Shown here: positions 4,041 to 41,498 of the stretch, piece after piece
How positions within the stretch are numbered: position 1 is the first letter of the stretch
Layout of the letters: each line of letters begins with the position of its first letter
DNA from: Chloroflexota bacterium
GTDB lineage: Bacteria; Chloroflexota; Anaerolineae; Anaerolineales; VGOW01
Assembly: GCA_016197225.1 (NCBI GenBank)
Contig: JACPWC010000029.1
Span: 1-64,000, forward strand
Length of the DNA: 64,000 nucleotides
Direction of reading: 5' to 3'
Notes under the pieces: model-generated
What the model saw: only the letters and a program-made list of their open reading frames with translations
Told to the model about the DNA's origin: nothing
Databases searched by the model: none
Program-made: the position numbers and the translations under genes

Positions 4041-4819
4041 TAGATAAACGCCTCCCGCTCTCCGAAACGCCCAACCTGCTGAAGCCGGGCGACACCCTCG
4101 CCCTCGGCGGCATGACCCTCTACCGCCGCCCGGTCGCCTTCGTCCGCGAACTGCTTCGCCAATCCCCAATAACTAATTACCAATTAACGTTACTCGCCTT
4201 CACGGCCTCTTACGAGTCCGATCTCCTCGTCGGCGCCGGCCTGATCAAGCGCGTGCGAACCTGCTACTTTGGCCTCGAAGCCTTCGGGCTGGCGCCGATG
4301 TTCACCCAGGCCGCAAATTTGGGCGATATTGAAATCGTCGAAGAGACGGAAGCCAGCCTCGCCTTCGGGCTGAGGGCGGCGCTGGCCAACGTCGGCTTCA
4401 TGGCCGGGCGCGGCTGGCTGGGCACCGACCTGCCCAAACTGCGGCCCGACGTGAAAACCGTCGTTGACCCCTACAACGGTGAAACGCTCATCGCCTTCCC
4501 GGCCATCCCTTGCGACGTGGCCGTCATTCATGCCCTCAAAGCCGATCCATCCGGCAACGCCGTCATCGGCGGCAACCCCGGCGTGGATATCGAACTGGCG
4601 ATGCTGGCCCGCACGACGATCATCACCGCCGAAGAGATCGTGGACAAGCTGGATAAGGCCGACATCCCCTCACCCGCCGTCCACGCGGTGGCGGCCGCCC
4701 CACGCGGGGCGTGGCCCACCTCCTGTCATCCGCTTTATCCGCTCGGCGGCGGTGAACTCCTCAAATACATTGACGCCTGCAACTCCGAGCGGTTCGACGA
4801 CTATTTGAGAGGCCTATGA
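4037..4819 (+). CDS. CoA-transferase family I subunit (glutaconate CoA-transferase A-like)
   Basis: The GDTLALGGMTLYRRP segment near the N-terminus and the ESDLLVGAG, YFGLE and GNPGVDIELA blocks match alpha-type family I CoA-transferase proteins, which move CoA between acyl groups. At 260 residues it is a single subunit with no partner subunit next to it. Within the gene, bases 4161-4193 are abruptly AT-rich (SPITNYQLTL at about residues 46-55) and look like intergenic repeat captured in frame between VRELLRQ and LTLLAF. The stop overlaps the ATG of the corA remnant. Confidence 0.72.
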   Translation: MIDKRLPLSETPNLLKPGDTLALGGMTLYRRPVAFVRELLRQSPITNYQLTLLAFTASYESDLLVGAGLIKRVRTCYFGLEAFGLAPMFTQAANLGDIEIVEETEASLAFGLRAALANVGFMAGRGWLGTDLPKLRPDVKTVVDPYNGETLIAFPAIPCDVAVIHALKADPSGNAVIGGNPGVDIELAMLARTTIITAEEIVDKLDKADIPSPAVHAVAAAPRGAWPTSCHPLYPLGGGELLKYIDACNSERFDDYLRGL

Positions 4820-5107
4820 TTCGAACCATCTATCGCAACAGCAAAGGCGGCATCACCACCGACTTGCCGGAAACGCACTGGAAAATCACCTTGCATGATG
4901 CGGACGGTCTGTTCTGGATTGACCTGGCCAACGAACCTATTCAATCCGGCCACGAACGATCTCGACACCAATGAAATTGACGCTGGCATGAACTTTGAAT
5001 AGCTGCCCTTCTCCCGCCTCGAGTTCCTCATCGTCGGGCTGGCGGCAATGGCCGTCCTGCCCGTCATTCTGTGGTGGTGGTTCAAAAAGCAACGCTGGAT
5101 TGATTAA
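4816..5107 (+). pseudogene. corA: corA remnant: N- and C-terminal ends of a Mg2+/Co2+ channel
   Basis: The first 52 codons (MIRTIYRNSKGG to a TGA at about 4972) resemble a CorA N-terminus. In another frame, 4985-4999 encodes GMNFE, the CorA signature, followed at once by an in-frame TAG (5000-5002). After that comes LPFSRLEFLIVGL, a hydrophobic helix and KKQRWID, which match a CorA C-terminal end. CorA is normally about 300-350 residues, so the middle of the gene is gone. An intact mgtE at 13852 could cover Mg2+ uptake. Confidence 0.68.
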
Positions 5108-5131
5108 TTGTGCCGCTTTCACCGATGGCGA

Positions 5132-5137
5132 TATAAT
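5132..5137 (+). promoter_or_regulatory. -10 box upstream of the cupredoxin gene
   Basis: TATAAT lies 54 bases before the GTG start at 5191. A weak TTGTGC at 5108-5113, 18 bases upstream, could be the -35. A strong ribosome-binding site (AAGGAG) lies downstream. Confidence 0.45.
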
Positions 5138-5190
5138 CAGAGACATCTTTGCAGATATGCAACAAACAAAATTAAGGAGATCAGTTACAA

Positions 5191-5559
5191 GTGAACATCA
5201 AACGTTTCTTTTTCATCGCGGCTGTGGTTGCCGCGTTCAGCCTGGCGCTGGCCGCCTGTGGCGGCGGAACTTCAGCGCCCGAACCGTTGAACATCACCAT
5301 TCATGCCAGAGACATTGCCTTCGATGTCACCGCCATTGACGCCAAAGTCAATCAAACCGTCAACGTCACCTACATCAACGACGGCGCGCTTGAACATACT
5401 TTCCTGATTGACAACATGGTCGCCGAGCAAAAAGTCGCCGTCGGCCAGACGATCACCTTCTCGTTCACGCCCTCGGCCGCCGGAACTTTCCAGTATTACT
5501 GCAACGTGCCCGGCCACAAAGAAGCCCTGATGGTTGGCACGCTGACTGTCGCCCCGTAG
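5191..5559 (+). CDS. Cupredoxin (plastocyanin-like) lipoprotein
   Basis: A signal peptide with lipobox LAAC near residue 22 predicts a lipid-anchored extracytoplasmic protein. The mature domain carries type I copper ligands: His in LEHTFL, then Cys, His and Met in YYCNVPGHKEALM. This predicts a one-electron carrier or copper-binding protein at the outer face of the membrane. The start is GTG with AAGGAG about 11 bases upstream. It is flanked by its own -10 box and is probably monocistronic. Its redox partner is not evident. Confidence 0.85.
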   Translation: MNIKRFFFIAAVVAAFSLALAACGGGTSAPEPLNITIHARDIAFDVTAIDAKVNQTVNVTYINDGALEHTFLIDNMVAEQKVAVGQTITFSFTPSAAGTFQYYCNVPGHKEALMVGTLTVAP

Positions 5560-5686
5560 CTCAAATCGTCAGACGCCCGGTGTCTGGCGTTCGGACTCAA
5601 GGTGCTCGCCGCCTCTGCGGTGGGCACTTTCCGTTTAAGTCAGGCGTTACTCATCATGAGTTTACCTCCGTCTCATGCTTTTACGA

Positions 5687-5692
5687 TATGAT
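5687..5692 (+). promoter_or_regulatory. -10 box upstream of ctpA
   Basis: TATGAT lies 25 bases before the start codon at 5718. No convincing -35 is seen. The ribosome-binding site is CAGGAGA near 5703-5709. Confidence 0.35.
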
Positions 5693-5717
5693 GTGAGCGG
5701 TTCAGGAGACACTTTTT

Positions 5718-6959
5718 ATGAAAATACTTCGCTCGATTCTTATCGGCGCCTTCATTGCATTCTGCGCCGCCGGCGTCTTCAGCGCCGGGTTCGTCGTCGG
5801 CCACAACACCACCTTCAGCGGCCTGCCAGTAGTCGGCGGCCTCGTCGCCGCCAACCCGCGCCAGGGCGGCACCCCCGGCGAACTGGCCGACGACTTCGCG
5901 CCCTTCTGGGAAGCCTGGTCGCTCGTCCATCAAGAATACGTTGACCAGCCGGTGGACGACAAGGCCCTGGCGTACGGCGCAATCAAAGGCATGTTGGCCG
6001 CGCTGGGCGACCGCCACACCGGCTACAGCACCCCTGCCGAATCCGAAATCCTGTTCAGCGATTCGGCCGGCGAGTTGGAAGGCATCGGCGCCGAAGTCAG
6101 TTCGAAGGGCGACTTCGTCGAAATCATTTCCCCCCTCCCCGGCTCGCCGGCTGAAAAGGCCGGTATTCTGCCCGGCGACCTGATCGTCGAAGTGGATGGC
6201 GAAGACATCGGCGGCCAGGACTTGTTCACGGTGATCAGCAAAGTGCGCGGCCCGGCAGGCTCCAACGTCCATTTGACCATCACTCGCGAAGGCGAGGCCG
6301 AACCGCTGGAGTTCGACATCGTCCGCGCCAAAATCACCATCCCCTCTGTTGAAAGTAAAATGCTGGAAGGCGGAATCGGCTACGTCAAAATCAACAACTT
6401 CGGCGAGAAGACGACAAAGGAATTGAAGTCGCAATTACAGGCGTTGATGCTCCAGAACCCGCAGGGCCTGGTGCTGGATTTGCGCGGAAACCCCGGCGGC
6501 CTGCGCGACACGGCCGTGGAAGTGATCAGCCAGTTTATCGGCGACGGCACGGCCATGATTCAACGTTATGGCGACGGCGAGCAGGAGGTGTTCGACGTGG
6601 AGCCGGGCGGCTTGGCCACCGACATCCCGCTGGTGGTGCTCATCAACAAAGGTAGCGCCAGCGCGTCGGAGATTGTGGCCGGGGCGATTCAGGATTATGG
6701 CCGGGGCCAGATCGTCGGCAAGCAATCTTACGGCAAAGGCACAGTGCAAAACTGGCAGGAGCTTTCCAACAATCAGGGCAGTGTCCGAATCACCGTCGCC
6801 CGCTGGCTCACGCCCGACGGACGTTCGATTGACAAAATCGGCGTCGCCCCTGACATTGAAATAGAATTGACTAAAGAAGATCGTGAGGCCCTGCTCGACC
6901 CGCAATTAGACGCCGCCGTGAACGTGCTTCAGGGCGAAGCGGTGGGCAGTTCCAAATAG
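5718..6959 (+). CDS. ctpA: Carboxyl-terminal processing protease, S41 family
   Basis: An N-terminal membrane anchor (about residues 7-27), a PDZ domain around residues 110-190 (GIGAEVSSKGDF, PAEKAGILPGDLIVEVDG) and the S41 catalytic core are visible. The Ser-Lys dyad is in GSASASEI (from residue 313) and YGKGTVQ (Lys340). It should cleave C-terminal tails of extracytoplasmic proteins. HtrA is nearby at 7930, so this stretch holds three envelope proteases with the zinc metallopeptidase between them. Length (413) is normal. Confidence 0.92.
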   Translation: MKILRSILIGAFIAFCAAGVFSAGFVVGHNTTFSGLPVVGGLVAANPRQGGTPGELADDFAPFWEAWSLVHQEYVDQPVDDKALAYGAIKGMLAALGDRHTGYSTPAESEILFSDSAGELEGIGAEVSSKGDFVEIISPLPGSPAEKAGILPGDLIVEVDGEDIGGQDLFTVISKVRGPAGSNVHLTITREGEAEPLEFDIVRAKITIPSVESKMLEGGIGYVKINNFGEKTTKELKSQLQALMLQNPQGLVLDLRGNPGGLRDTAVEVISQFIGDGTAMIQRYGDGEQEVFDVEPGGLATDIPLVVLINKGSASASEIVAGAIQDYGRGQIVGKQSYGKGTVQNWQELSNNQGSVRITVARWLTPDGRSIDKIGVAPDIEIELTKEDREALLDPQLDAAVNVLQGEAVGSSK

Positions 6960-7929: not shown

Positions 7930-9057
7930 ATGTCAATCAAACGCATCGCAATCGGCTTCATCGCCCTCGCCGTCGTCGGCGTGGTTGCATTCGGCGGCGC
8001 CGCCGTAGGCGGGGCGGCAGTGTACTTTGCCGCGCGCGGCAATCCACCATCGGCGCCGGCGGTGGAACAACAACCGGTGGCGTTGCCGCCGGCGCAAGAG
8101 CCGACCGGCGGACAACTTCAAACAGTGGATGTGCAAACCGCGATCACAGACGCGGTAGCCAGGGTCGGCCCGGCGGTCGTCACCGTCATCAACGACACCG
8201 GCCAGGGTCAGGCCTCGGGCTCGGGCGTCATCATCTCAAACGACGGCTACATCCTCACCAACAATCACGTCGTCGAAGGCCAACGCGCATTGTCGGTCAT
8301 TTTCCAGAATGGCGAGGCTGCCGAAGCAAAACTTATTGGCAGTGACCAGTTTGCCGACGTGGCCGTCATCAAAGTCGGCGTCTCCGTTCCAGCCGTCGCC
8401 GAACTGGGCAACTCGGATTCGCTCAAACCCGGCGAGTCGGTCATTGCCATCGGTTCGCCGCTTGGCTCCGATTTCAAGAACACTGTCACCGTCGGCGTGG
8501 TGAGCGCCACCGGGCGAACCATTGAAAACGACAACGGCTACCAGATGGAAGACTTGATCCAAACCGACGCCGCCATCAATCATGGCAACTCCGGCGGGCC
8601 GCTGGTGAATCTGGCCGGGCAAGTGATTGGCTTGAACACGCTCGTGGTTCGCGGCAACGGCTTTACCGGCGACCAGGCCGAAGGCCTGGGATTTGCGGTG
8701 GCGGCCAACACCGTCCGAGCGGTGAGCGATCAGATCATCCGTCAGGGTTATGTGGCCCGGCCTTATCTGGGCGTGCAGTGGCAGGCGATCACCCCCGCTG
8801 TTGCCAGCCAATACAATCTCGGTGTGGCCTGGGGTATTTATGTAACTGACCTGGCCGGCGATGGTCCGGCCAGGCAAGCCGGAATACAGCCGGGTGACAT
8901 TATCACCGCCATCGGCGACACGACTCTGGACGAGAGTCATCCGTTCATCAACTCCCTGCTTGAGTACCAGCCCGGCCAGCAGGTGCCGCTCACCGTCTGG
9001 CGGAACGGGCAAACACTCACCGTTCCGGTGACGCTTGGCGAACGGCCAAGAGCATAG
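7930..9057 (+). CDS. htrA: HtrA/Deg-type trypsin-like serine protease
   Basis: An N-terminal membrane anchor (about residues 8-34) is followed by a trypsin-fold domain with the triad His113 (TNNHVVEG), Asp143 (FADVAVIK) and Ser221 (GNSGGPL), and one C-terminal PDZ domain (PARQAGIQPGDIITAIGD). This is the single-PDZ DegS/DegQ-like form, acting on misfolded envelope proteins. A good GGGAGG ribosome-binding site precedes the ATG. The gene lies between two terminators, so it is probably transcribed alone. Confidence 0.93.
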   Translation: MSIKRIAIGFIALAVVGVVAFGGAAVGGAAVYFAARGNPPSAPAVEQQPVALPPAQEPTGGQLQTVDVQTAITDAVARVGPAVVTVINDTGQGQASGSGVIISNDGYILTNNHVVEGQRALSVIFQNGEAAEAKLIGSDQFADVAVIKVGVSVPAVAELGNSDSLKPGESVIAIGSPLGSDFKNTVTVGVVSATGRTIENDNGYQMEDLIQTDAAINHGNSGGPLVNLAGQVIGLNTLVVRGNGFTGDQAEGLGFAVAANTVRAVSDQIIRQGYVARPYLGVQWQAITPAVASQYNLGVAWGIYVTDLAGDGPARQAGIQPGDIITAIGDTTLDESHPFINSLLEYQPGQQVPLTVWRNGQTLTVPVTLGERPRA

Positions 9058-38598: not shown

Positions 38599-39120
38599 AT
38601 GCCCGACCGCAAAGAATTGATTCTCAAACGACTGGCTGAGGAGGGCGCAAAGACCGTCACCTTTTTCAAAGGGTTGGCCGACTCACAATGGGGGCAACAG
38701 GTGTACACCACCGGCCCGGAATGGCGCATCCGCGAATTGTTGGCGCACTTCGTGAGCGCCGAGCGGACGTTTGTGTTGTACGGCCACGACATTCTGGCTG
38801 GCGGCTCCGGTGCGCCCGAAGATTTTGTGATTGACGAGTTCAACGCGACCCAGGTGAGCGGGCTAAAAGAGGCGACGACGGCTAACCTGATTCAGCAGTT
38901 TGAAGCCGCCCGGACCGAGATCGTCGAAATCGCTCAAAGCATGGCCGACGCCGACTTCGACCGGGTTGGCCGCCACCCCTGGTTTGGCCGGGTTCCGCTG
39001 GAGAACATGCTCAAGCTCATCTATCGCCACAACATGATCCACCAGCGCGACATCGCCAAAGCGCTTGAAACCGGCCAGCCTGTGCCGCATGTGGATGTTG
39101 CGCCACCGACAGCAAGCTAG
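38599..39120 (+). CDS. DinB-like four-helix protein, copy 1
   Basis: A 173-residue all-helical protein. WRIRELLAHFVSAER and the late RHNMIHQRDIAKAL resemble the DinB/maleylpyruvate-isomerase fold, in which His residues bind a metal and thiols such as bacillithiol or mycothiol may be used. I choose ATG 38599 with AAAGGAG upstream. It is clearly paralogous to 40934-41410: both share a W..R..LAH segment, (P)EDF, FN, ADADFD and GRH. The AAA/DUF4276 pair separates them. Confidence 0.75.
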   Translation: MPDRKELILKRLAEEGAKTVTFFKGLADSQWGQQVYTTGPEWRIRELLAHFVSAERTFVLYGHDILAGGSGAPEDFVIDEFNATQVSGLKEATTANLIQQFEAARTEIVEIAQSMADADFDRVGRHPWFGRVPLENMLKLIYRHNMIHQRDIAKALETGQPVPHVDVAPPTAS

Positions 39121-39133
39121 GAGGCAATAATTT

Positions 39134-40288
39134 ATGAGCATCCAAAGGCTTGAAATCGAAGGTTTTCGTTCGCTCCAAAGCGTAACTTGGGAACCTGGCC
39201 CTCTCAATGTGTTGATCGGCGTCAATGGTTCAGGTAAATCCAATTTGCTACGCGCCCTGCAACTATTGAAGAGCGCCGCCGATGGCAAACTCTCAGAAAG
39301 TGTTCGCGCTGCTGGAGGAATGGTGCCGTTATTGTGGGACGGGCAGGTCAATGCAATAAAGTTCAGTTTGCAACTCACGTCCCCTGCCGCCACTTATGAA
39401 CTCGTCGCAAATCGTTTGGGGCAAAGCGGAGCCTTCTACATCGAAAGTGAATTCCTAATAGCAAATGGCGACCCTGCTCAAAAAGTCCTGGAACGCACAA
39501 GAACGCGAGCTGCTGTTTTAAATGCCCAGCAAGTTAAGCTAGAACTTAATGCTGAAGCATTTGATGAAGATGAGCCTCTAATCGCATTCAGACCGGTTTC
39601 GGAACTGAATCAACCCTTTTCAAGACTCCAAAGGGCAATAGCAAACTTTTACATTTACCATGATGTGCGCGTGGATAGCGACTCGGAAATGCGACGTGCT
39701 ACCGTCTCACGCCGCGATTTGCGCGTTGACCCGGACGGAAGCAATCTAATCTCAGTTTTGCACACGCTTTACACAAACGACCGGTACTTCAAAGATGAAT
39801 TAAACGCGGCAATGAAAGCCGCCTTCGGTGATGAGTTTGAGGAGTTAGTCTTCCCGCCCGCTGAGGATGGTCGTATCCAACTCCGTTTACGCTGGCGTTC
39901 TCTGCGCCGTGAGCAATCGGCCAGCGACCTCTCGGATGGCACACTGCGCTTTCTATTTTTACTCACTGTATTGGCCGGATCGGCCGGTTCGGACCCGCCG
40001 TCGCTCATTGCCATAGACGAGCCGGAAACCGGCCTGCACCCCAGCATGTTGCCGCTCATCGCCGAATACGCAACCGACGCGGCCCGTTACACGCAAGTGA
40101 TCTTCACTACTCACTCGCCGCAATTTCTAAATGGATTCAAAGGGCGAGCCGATATTACAACAATAGTAGAGTCGATTGAAGGCAAATCTCGTTTGCGACG
40201 ATTGCCCGAAGCCGAGCTAAGTCGCTGGCTAGAACATTTTCAATTGGGCGATTTGATGTTGTCGGGAGAACTAGAGAGTATCGAATGA
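39134..40288 (+). CDS. AAA ATPase, OLD/SMC-like (AAA_21)
   Basis: Walker A GVNGSGKSN (residues 29-37), an ABC-type signature (SASDLSDGTLRFL), Walker B LIAIDEPETGLHP with Asp295-Glu296, and the H-loop FTTHSPQFLNGF make a complete SMC/OLD-type ATPase. There is no nuclease domain in this protein. The next gene, overlapping by four bases, encodes a DUF4276/Toprim-like protein, so the two split the parts of an OLD nuclease between them. Base composition is visibly more AT-rich than the surrounding genes, which suggests acquisition. Confidence 0.87.
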   Translation: MSIQRLEIEGFRSLQSVTWEPGPLNVLIGVNGSGKSNLLRALQLLKSAADGKLSESVRAAGGMVPLLWDGQVNAIKFSLQLTSPAATYELVANRLGQSGAFYIESEFLIANGDPAQKVLERTRTRAAVLNAQQVKLELNAEAFDEDEPLIAFRPVSELNQPFSRLQRAIANFYIYHDVRVDSDSEMRRATVSRRDLRVDPDGSNLISVLHTLYTNDRYFKDELNAAMKAAFGDEFEELVFPPAEDGRIQLRLRWRSLRREQSASDLSDGTLRFLFLLTVLAGSAGSDPPSLIAIDEPETGLHPSMLPLIAEYATDAARYTQVIFTTHSPQFLNGFKGRADITTIVESIEGKSRLRRLPEAELSRWLEHFQLGDLMLSGELESIE

Positions 40289-40917
40289 AAATCGTACTTC
40301 TCGTAGAAGGATGGACAGAGAAAGAACTGCCGCCATTTCTCAAGCGCTGGCTTGATCCCCAATTGCCACAACCCATTCGCATCCAGCCTGTGCGTTTTGA
40401 AGGCAACGCCCATTATTTGGATAACGTCGCCAACAAAACTCGGTTCCACTTATCCAACGATGATACCATCGCCGTTTTTGGATTGCTCGACCTCTATGGC
40501 TTGAAGCTCGACTATTCCAAACATGCTGACCGCGATCAAAAGATTGCCCACGCCCGCGCCGAGATAGTGAAACGTATTCCTGAAGCAGATCGCTCACGTT
40601 TCCGCCAACACTTTGCCGTGCATGAAACAGAGGCTTGGCTATTAAGCGATCCCCGTTTGTTCCCAGCCCTCAAGCTCTCCGCAAACTCTGCCCGCCCCGA
40701 AGATGTAAATTTCGATGAACCTCCATCCAAATTGCTAGATCGCCTCTTCAGCCAAAGTCGAGACGGGCGAGGCTACAAGAAAACGACTATGGCCCGTACG
40801 TTGTTGCCCAAACTTGATCCGGTTCTCGTCTATCAAAAGTGCCCCAACTTCAAATTGATGATGGACGAGATGCTGATGTTAGTCAAGAAAGCACTCGGCA
40901 ATCAGTCCAGTTCTTAA
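40285..40917 (+). CDS. DUF4276 protein, Toprim-nuclease-like partner of the ATPase
   Basis: The N-terminus, LLVEGWTEKE (Glu8, Glu12), resembles the LVEGxTE strand of OLD-type Toprim nucleases. FGLLDLYG holds Asp69 in a possible metal-site strand, and HETEAWLLSDP (Glu114, Glu116) is a DUF4276 hallmark. At 210 residues it matches the family. The start overlaps the ATPase stop (ATGA), so the pair is produced together. A role in defence is inferred from this architecture, which parallels PARIS and other ATPase-plus-Toprim pairs. Confidence 0.8.
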   Translation: MKIVLLVEGWTEKELPPFLKRWLDPQLPQPIRIQPVRFEGNAHYLDNVANKTRFHLSNDDTIAVFGLLDLYGLKLDYSKHADRDQKIAHARAEIVKRIPEADRSRFRQHFAVHETEAWLLSDPRLFPALKLSANSARPEDVNFDEPPSKLLDRLFSQSRDGRGYKKTTMARTLLPKLDPVLVYQKCPNFKLMMDEMLMLVKKALGNQSSS

Positions 40918-40933
40918 AGAGAAAGGTAAACCC

Positions 40934-41410
40934 ATGTCCCGTAAAGACTCCATCCACCAAAGAATTACTGCCGACCACGCCGCCAGCATGTCAATCTTCA
41001 ACAGCTTCACCGCCGAGCAGTGGGAAATGCCCGCGCCGTCCGACGAGGGCGCGCAGTGGAAGGCCCGCGACGTGCTGGCCCACCTCGCCGTCTCCGAAGG
41101 CGGCCAACTCGGCCAGATCGAGCGTTGCCTCAAAGGCGAAGCCCCCGTGCCCGACGACTTTGACCTCAACCGTTTCAATCGCCGCTCTGTGCAAAAACAG
41201 GCCGAAAAGTCAGTGGCCGACTTTCTAAATATGATCGAAACCGGCCACGCCCAGGTGCTGGCAACGCTTGATACCGTCGCCGACGCCGACTTCGACAAAA
41301 GCGGCAGGCACGCCCGCGGCGACGTGATCACCATTGAGCAATTCTTCATCCGCACCACCGAGCACCGGGTTCAGCACGCCGAAGAACTGAAGCGAGCTTT
41401 ATCAGGTTAG
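40934..41410 (+). CDS. DinB-like four-helix protein, copy 2
   Basis: A 158-residue helical protein paralogous to copy 1: WKARDVLAHLAVSEG, PDDFDLNRFN, ADADFDKSGRH, and a late TTEHRVQHAEELKRAL helix carrying His residues. A ribosome-binding site (AGAGAAAGG) lies upstream. It starts 16 bases after the DUF4276 gene. The two copies most simply represent an old tandem duplication later split by the two-gene insertion. Confidence 0.75.
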   Translation: MSRKDSIHQRITADHAASMSIFNSFTAEQWEMPAPSDEGAQWKARDVLAHLAVSEGGQLGQIERCLKGEAPVPDDFDLNRFNRRSVQKQAEKSVADFLNMIETGHAQVLATLDTVADADFDKSGRHARGDVITIEQFFIRTTEHRVQHAEELKRALSG

Positions 41411-41420
41411 CCTGCGTATT

Positions 41421-41472
41421 GCGTAGTGCGTATAGCGTAATGGCTCTACGGAATACGGAATATGCACTACGC
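41421..41472 (+). repeat. Intergenic inverted repeat
   Basis: GCGTAGTGCGTAT (41421-41433) pairs with ATATGCACTACGC (41460-41472) with one mismatch; the centre holds two tacggaa copies. Confidence 0.7.
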
Positions 41473-41498
41473 CCTACTTTACCAACCGACTGCCTCTT

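Follow-up and report, generated by a model that had tools for sequence, protein, structure and literature searches.

Between two DinB genes of a Chloroflexota bacterium lies a pair of genes, one for an ATPase and one for a protein of DUF4276, a family without an assigned function; what does this pair do, and how did it come to be there? The initial annotation had proposed a two-gene defence module built along the lines of PARIS. The pair turns out to be already catalogued and is not new: it corresponds to HEC-01A/HEC-01B, a candidate defence system in PADLOC. We consider it probable that the locus represents a horizontally acquired HEC-01-type defence module composed of an ATPase switch and a Toprim-like nuclease. 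The features of the locus are given below, and "the window" refers to the whole 64-kb stretch of DNA that was analysed.

38599-39120, + strand: left flank, a DinB_2 family protein of 173 aa (Pfam DinB_2, E 8.8e-12), whose homologue in congeners is immediately followed by the second DinB gene
39118-40921, + strand: inserted segment (approximate), about 1.8 kb, two genes only; empty site in congeners G002, G003 and G004
39120-39124, + strand: Shine-Dalgarno-like GGAGG 5' of the ATPase gene, read from the sequence
39134-40288, + strand: ABC/OLD-type ATPase, HEC-01A, 384 aa (AAA_21, E 1.4e-33; HEC-01A, E 3.3e-62)
40285-40917, + strand: DUF4276 protein, HEC-01B, 210 aa, proposed Toprim-like nuclease effector (PF14103, HEC-01B, predicted model)
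40934-41410, + strand: right flank, a second DinB_2 family protein of 158 aa (Pfam DinB_2, E 7.4e-10)

The two open reading frames (ORFs) of the pair overlap by 4 bp. They share one strand with both DinB genes, at spacings of 13 and 16 bp, and promoter prediction at the pair returned no separate promoter; the pair is probably co-transcribed with its flanking genes. Such an arrangement is what one would expect of a housekeeping pair tied to the DinB genes, in thiol metabolism or stress, but three congeners lack the pair at this site, its base composition differs from that of its surroundings, and at other loci its relatives are found beside different genes, often ones for defence. We therefore disfavour a housekeeping role and regard it as highly improbable; the consistent housekeeping linkage that the initial annotation had named as counter-evidence did not occur among the relatives.

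How, then, did the pair arrive? The two DinB genes are direct neighbours in three congeners, separated by an unaligned gap of roughly 148 bp (G002), 91 bp (G003) or 32 bp (G004); a fourth congener is uninformative, as its two DinB genes lie on separate contigs. Comparison with the congeners places the junctions of the insert between the end of the first DinB gene and about position 40921. Additionally, GC makes up 50.5% of the pair, whereas the window averages 59.0% (sd 2.5%); no other 1.8-kb stretch in the window is lower. Both the AT-richness of the pair and its position between two paralogous genes, as initially annotated, are borne out. Because of the empty sites and the shift in composition, an insertion into this lineage appears more likely than three losses. 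The insert shows no sign of an integrase, of terminal or flanking repeats, or of a target duplication. Just beyond the second DinB gene, at 41413-41481 of the window, there is a short repeat in the intergenic DNA, of which the host genome and its congeners contain some forty more matches.

The nearest relatives of the DUF4276 protein in the named-genome collection, at 39-47% identity, belong to Acidobacteriota, Paraliomyxa and Wallbacteria, whereas the best matches among sampled genomes of the class to which the host belongs reach 26-37%; this pattern fits horizontal transfer. The pair has most likely been acquired horizontally, and this copy is real and well supported. The clean insertion of just these two genes shows that they are able to travel as a minimal unit. 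The host genome also contains a second, divergent ATPase and DUF4276 pair (G000, contig C22:10209-10802; L002, L016 and L075), whose DUF4276 protein shows 30% identity.

Across the phylum, DUF4276 is patchy, occurring in 58 of the 400 genomes sampled and in 0 of 14 controls. Where it does occur, it is accompanied: an ATPase ORF lies directly upstream at 43 of the 44 DUF4276 loci examined, and the remaining locus is at the end of a contig. Decay has set in at one of these 43 pairs (L006; G041 C1:2831577): both ORFs are shortened, and the segment spanning D69 to E116 is missing from the DUF4276 ORF, which nevertheless stays in frame. A different kind of damage is seen in Paraliomyxa miuraensis (L018, ~7966-8001), where the DUF4276 frame is shifted just after VEGHTE, through either inactivation of the gene or a sequencing error. 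The evolutionary distances of the two proteins are correlated (Spearman 0.54 over 39 pairs, versus a maximum of 0.27 in 2000 permutations), a correlation part of which may be due to host relatedness. Scanning with the ATPase alignment placed the pair on two IMG/VR viral contigs, one of which has the layout of a transposable phage, with a transposase, a CI-like repressor and a terminase. In the transposable-phage-like contig IMGVR_UViG_2767802354_000002 (L072), the pair, at 4216-6727, adjoins a CI-like repressor. Viral-contig scans that started from the DUF4276 protein or from its close alignment gave no match. tblastn in phage and plasmid sequences gave none either, so this subfamily was not seen on the sequenced phages or plasmids covered.

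What are the two proteins? For the ATPase, the HEC-01A match covers residues 2-375, and PADLOC also returns a match to AbiLi (E 4.7e-25). The predicted structure (pLDDT 88) adopts the fold of SMC/Rad50/OLD/PtuA ATPase heads, and the nucleotide-binding motifs are located as follows.

39218-39241, + strand: Walker A motif GVNGSGKS, from the sequence
39929-39943, + strand: ABC signature LSDGT, from the sequence and alignment
40004-40042, + strand: Walker B and D-loop LIAIDEPETGLHP, from the sequence and alignment

The GxNxxGK[ST] form of the Walker A motif is present in 39/39 ATPases in our alignment, and the H-loop reads THS. Pfam and motif inspection revealed no nuclease domain in the ATPase chain, in agreement with the original reading of the protein as one with complete OLD/SMC motifs and no nuclease.

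The DUF4276 protein matches PF14103 along the whole domain (Pfam, E 1.7e-28) and HEC-01B of PADLOC over residues 2-197 (E 1.8e-16). Its predicted model is of good quality, with a pLDDT of 83.5 and a pTM of 0.82, and it is on this predicted structure that the fold assignment rests. Structure prediction had been suggested at the outset as a check on the fold, and its outcome is mixed. VIA-align ranks the C-terminal Toprim regions of OLD proteins in its first four rows (Z 9.2, 9.0, 9.0 and 8.7; 162-166 aligned residues), with GajA at Z 6.7-7.6. The lead over unrelated folds is small (Z 9.2 versus 8.6), although two of the three rows at Z 8.6 align only 113-116 residues; the third aligns 170. Foldseek against the PDB, on the other hand, gave nothing significant (best E 0.02). 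The best fold match in the viral library is an RloB-like protein (E 7e-4). PDB sequence searches with the protein and with a 40-member profile returned nothing relevant, and by hhalign, profile comparison is weak with DUF4435 (E 9e-4, probability 23%) and negligible with RloB (E 0.026 over 11 columns). The model thus points, not conclusively, to a Toprim fold, with the OLD type closest; a prediction lacking such a fold, which the initial annotation had named as counter-evidence, did not arise.

Conservation provides what we judge to be a stronger argument than the fold match for a Toprim-like nuclease. The residues in question, all identified by conservation, are these.

40303-40320, + strand: VEGWTE, with E8 and E12 as proposed metal ligands (OLD E400 and E404)
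40489-40497, + strand: D69-L-Y71, the proposed Toprim DxD position with Tyr for the second Asp
40621-40638, + strand: HETEAW, with E114 and E116 as proposed metal B ligands (OLD T506 and E508)
40774-40782, + strand: YKK, with Y164 and K166, the latter the proposed catalytic Lys (OLD K562)

Among aligned relatives, E8 is found in 41/41, D69 in 43/43 and E116 in 42/42, and all three are invariant across 40 aligned relatives; the E12 position is E or D in 36/42, the E114 position is mostly acidic, and Y164 and K166 are retained in 40/43 and 39/44, respectively. The LVEGxTE-like strand, possible metal Asp and HETEAW motif that were first noticed in this one protein are all present. E8 directly follows the first predicted strand (residues 2-7) and D69 the third (residues 61-68), as a Toprim fold would predict. 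The order of residues, ExxxE...DxY...ExE...K, parallels that of OLD, for which the active site comprises E400, E404, D455, D457, T506, E508 and K562 in BpOLD (PMC6755086) and E377, D381, D431, D433, S478 and E480 in TsOLD (PMC7049728). The spacings are comparable: 61 versus 54-55 residues from E to D, 47 versus 49-53 from D to E, and 50 versus 54 from E to K. From this order and spacing we infer the residue-by-residue pairing, as the aligner gives range ends only (residue 1 of the model with OLD residue 393). Position 71, where OLD has the second Asp, differs systematically: it is Y in 27, E in 9 and D in 5 of 43 relatives. A tentative extension, to which we give somewhat less than even weight, is that DUF4276 forms a branch of its own among Toprim-like two-metal nucleases, most members of which have Tyr in place of the second Asp of DxD; an altered metal site or substrate throughout the family would then distinguish HEC-01 from OLD, PARIS and AbiL.

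What would such a nuclease cut? One variant of our preferred explanation, differing in substrate and outcome, is that the pair works directly on invading DNA, which it would restrict or nick under the control of ATP in the manner of OLD or Gabija, and spares the host. The closest structural matches are indeed class 2 OLD DNA nucleases and GajA, and the conserved DUF4276 residues match the OLD active site; however, PARIS, with the same two-gene architecture, cleaves tRNA (PMC12409363), and no helicase partner is present. On balance, we view this host-sparing variant as the less likely course, though one of appreciable probability.

Is the family associated with defence at all? The regions around 20 DUF4276 genes (~12.5 kb each) were compared with 20 control stretches, which came from the same genomes and almost always from the same contigs; the annotated pairs (in controls, the central ORFs) were removed, and 107 case and 114 control ORFs were scanned with PADLOC at E<=1e-12. 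Matches were obtained to 200 PADLOC families in the case flanks versus 16 in the controls, counts that are inflated by redundant models. The best case-flank matches include type IIG RM, HmaA, HmaB, a type I methyltransferase and its specificity subunit, Drt4 and Cmr3, and where matches were traced to a protein, the strongest belong to three loci (L080, L087 and L090); control matches are mostly DrmC and generic ATPase models. L090 (G105 C8, 3193-11172) has its DUF4276 gene flanked by HmaB and HmaA, the setting that gave HEC-01 its name. On the question of whether the pair clusters with defence genes across genomes, these data show an association of DUF4276 with such genes, not an island around every copy; in the 64-kb window there is no defence island, the PADLOC matches of the other genes being weak and generic.

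The same neighbourhoods bear on another reading, in which the pair serves chiefly as a toxin-antitoxin (addiction) system, with a Toprim-like toxin held by the ATPase and persistence through self-maintenance in place of phage protection. AAA/Toprim-OLD pairs, including one of RloB type, have been tested as toxin-antitoxin systems in toxicity neutralization assays in E. coli (PMC10440598), and a small two-gene insert without other cargo would suit such a life; but defence genes surround the relatives to a far greater extent than they do control regions, one relative being embedded in Hma, and the two readings overlap, PARIS being both. We think it unlikely that addiction is the main role.

For the preferred reading, that of an HEC-01-type defence module, a sequence of steps can be proposed. 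HEC-01A would be an ABC/OLD-family switch, probably multimeric, that binds the DUF4276 protein and keeps it in check. On sensing an infection signal, HEC-01A would release or activate HEC-01B, a putative Toprim-like nuclease dependent on two metals, which would cut DNA or tRNA and stop phage growth, most likely by abortive infection. By analogy to PARIS or AbiL, the ATPase would most likely act both as the sensor of infection and as the partner that restrains or frees a two-metal nuclease. We infer the regulation by the ATPase, the nuclease activity, the trigger, the substrate and the defensive role; the coupling of the genes, their motifs and family membership, the insertion and the defence-rich neighbourhoods of relatives are direct observations. 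The two-gene defence module of the initial annotation is thus supported by family models, pairing, neighbourhoods, mobility and structure, with the amendments that it is an already catalogued candidate, that it is distinct from PARIS and that no island surrounds it here.

How does the pair compare with known systems? HEC-01 is the closest: both proteins match its models over nearly their full length and are encoded by adjacent genes. This copy differs in standing outside any Hma locus or defence island, as a lone insert between DinB genes, the Hma setting being how HEC-01 was discovered and not part of its protein models. HEC stands for Hma-embedded candidate; some HECs, including HEC-06, are antiviral, and HEC-05 is BrxU (PMC12988326, PMC11411939). 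HEC-01 is also among the systems predicted in Desulfovibrio piger (PMC12724379). In the literature collection searched, there was no published test of HEC-01 and no paper on the term DUF4276. PARIS (the ATPase AriA and AriB, a DUF4435 Toprim tRNase) likewise splits an ABC ATPase from a Toprim-type effector; its ATPase forms a hexamer that retains the effector, a phage protein sets it free, and tRNA is what it then cleaves (PMC12409363). Activation by an Ocr-like anti-restriction protein is a further mark of PARIS. The parallel initially drawn to PARIS stands for this split architecture but not for the effector, which here is DUF4276 and matches no DUF4435 or AriB model (Pfam, PADLOC). AbiL, or RloA-RloB, is a two-gene system of an AAA ATPase and a Toprim-OLD effector that causes abortive infection in Lactococcus (PMC10440598), whereas the effector here has no RloB/AbiLii family match (Pfam, PADLOC). 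Because the effector belongs to another family, the pair, judged by its sequences, is not a member of PARIS or AbiL. OLD and GajA share with it the ABC ATPase, have a Toprim active site (ExxxE, DxD, (T/S/D)xE, K) onto which its conserved residues can be mapped, and provide the best structural matches, but they are single chains where the pair has two separate ORFs, and they have DxD where it has DxY; Gabija, moreover, includes the helicase GajB. HEC-01 was thus already catalogued, and what we add is the evidence for insertion and a residue-level nuclease hypothesis for DUF4276: the map of E8, E12, D69, E114, E116 and K166 onto OLD turns a domain of unknown function into a specific, testable candidate nuclease.
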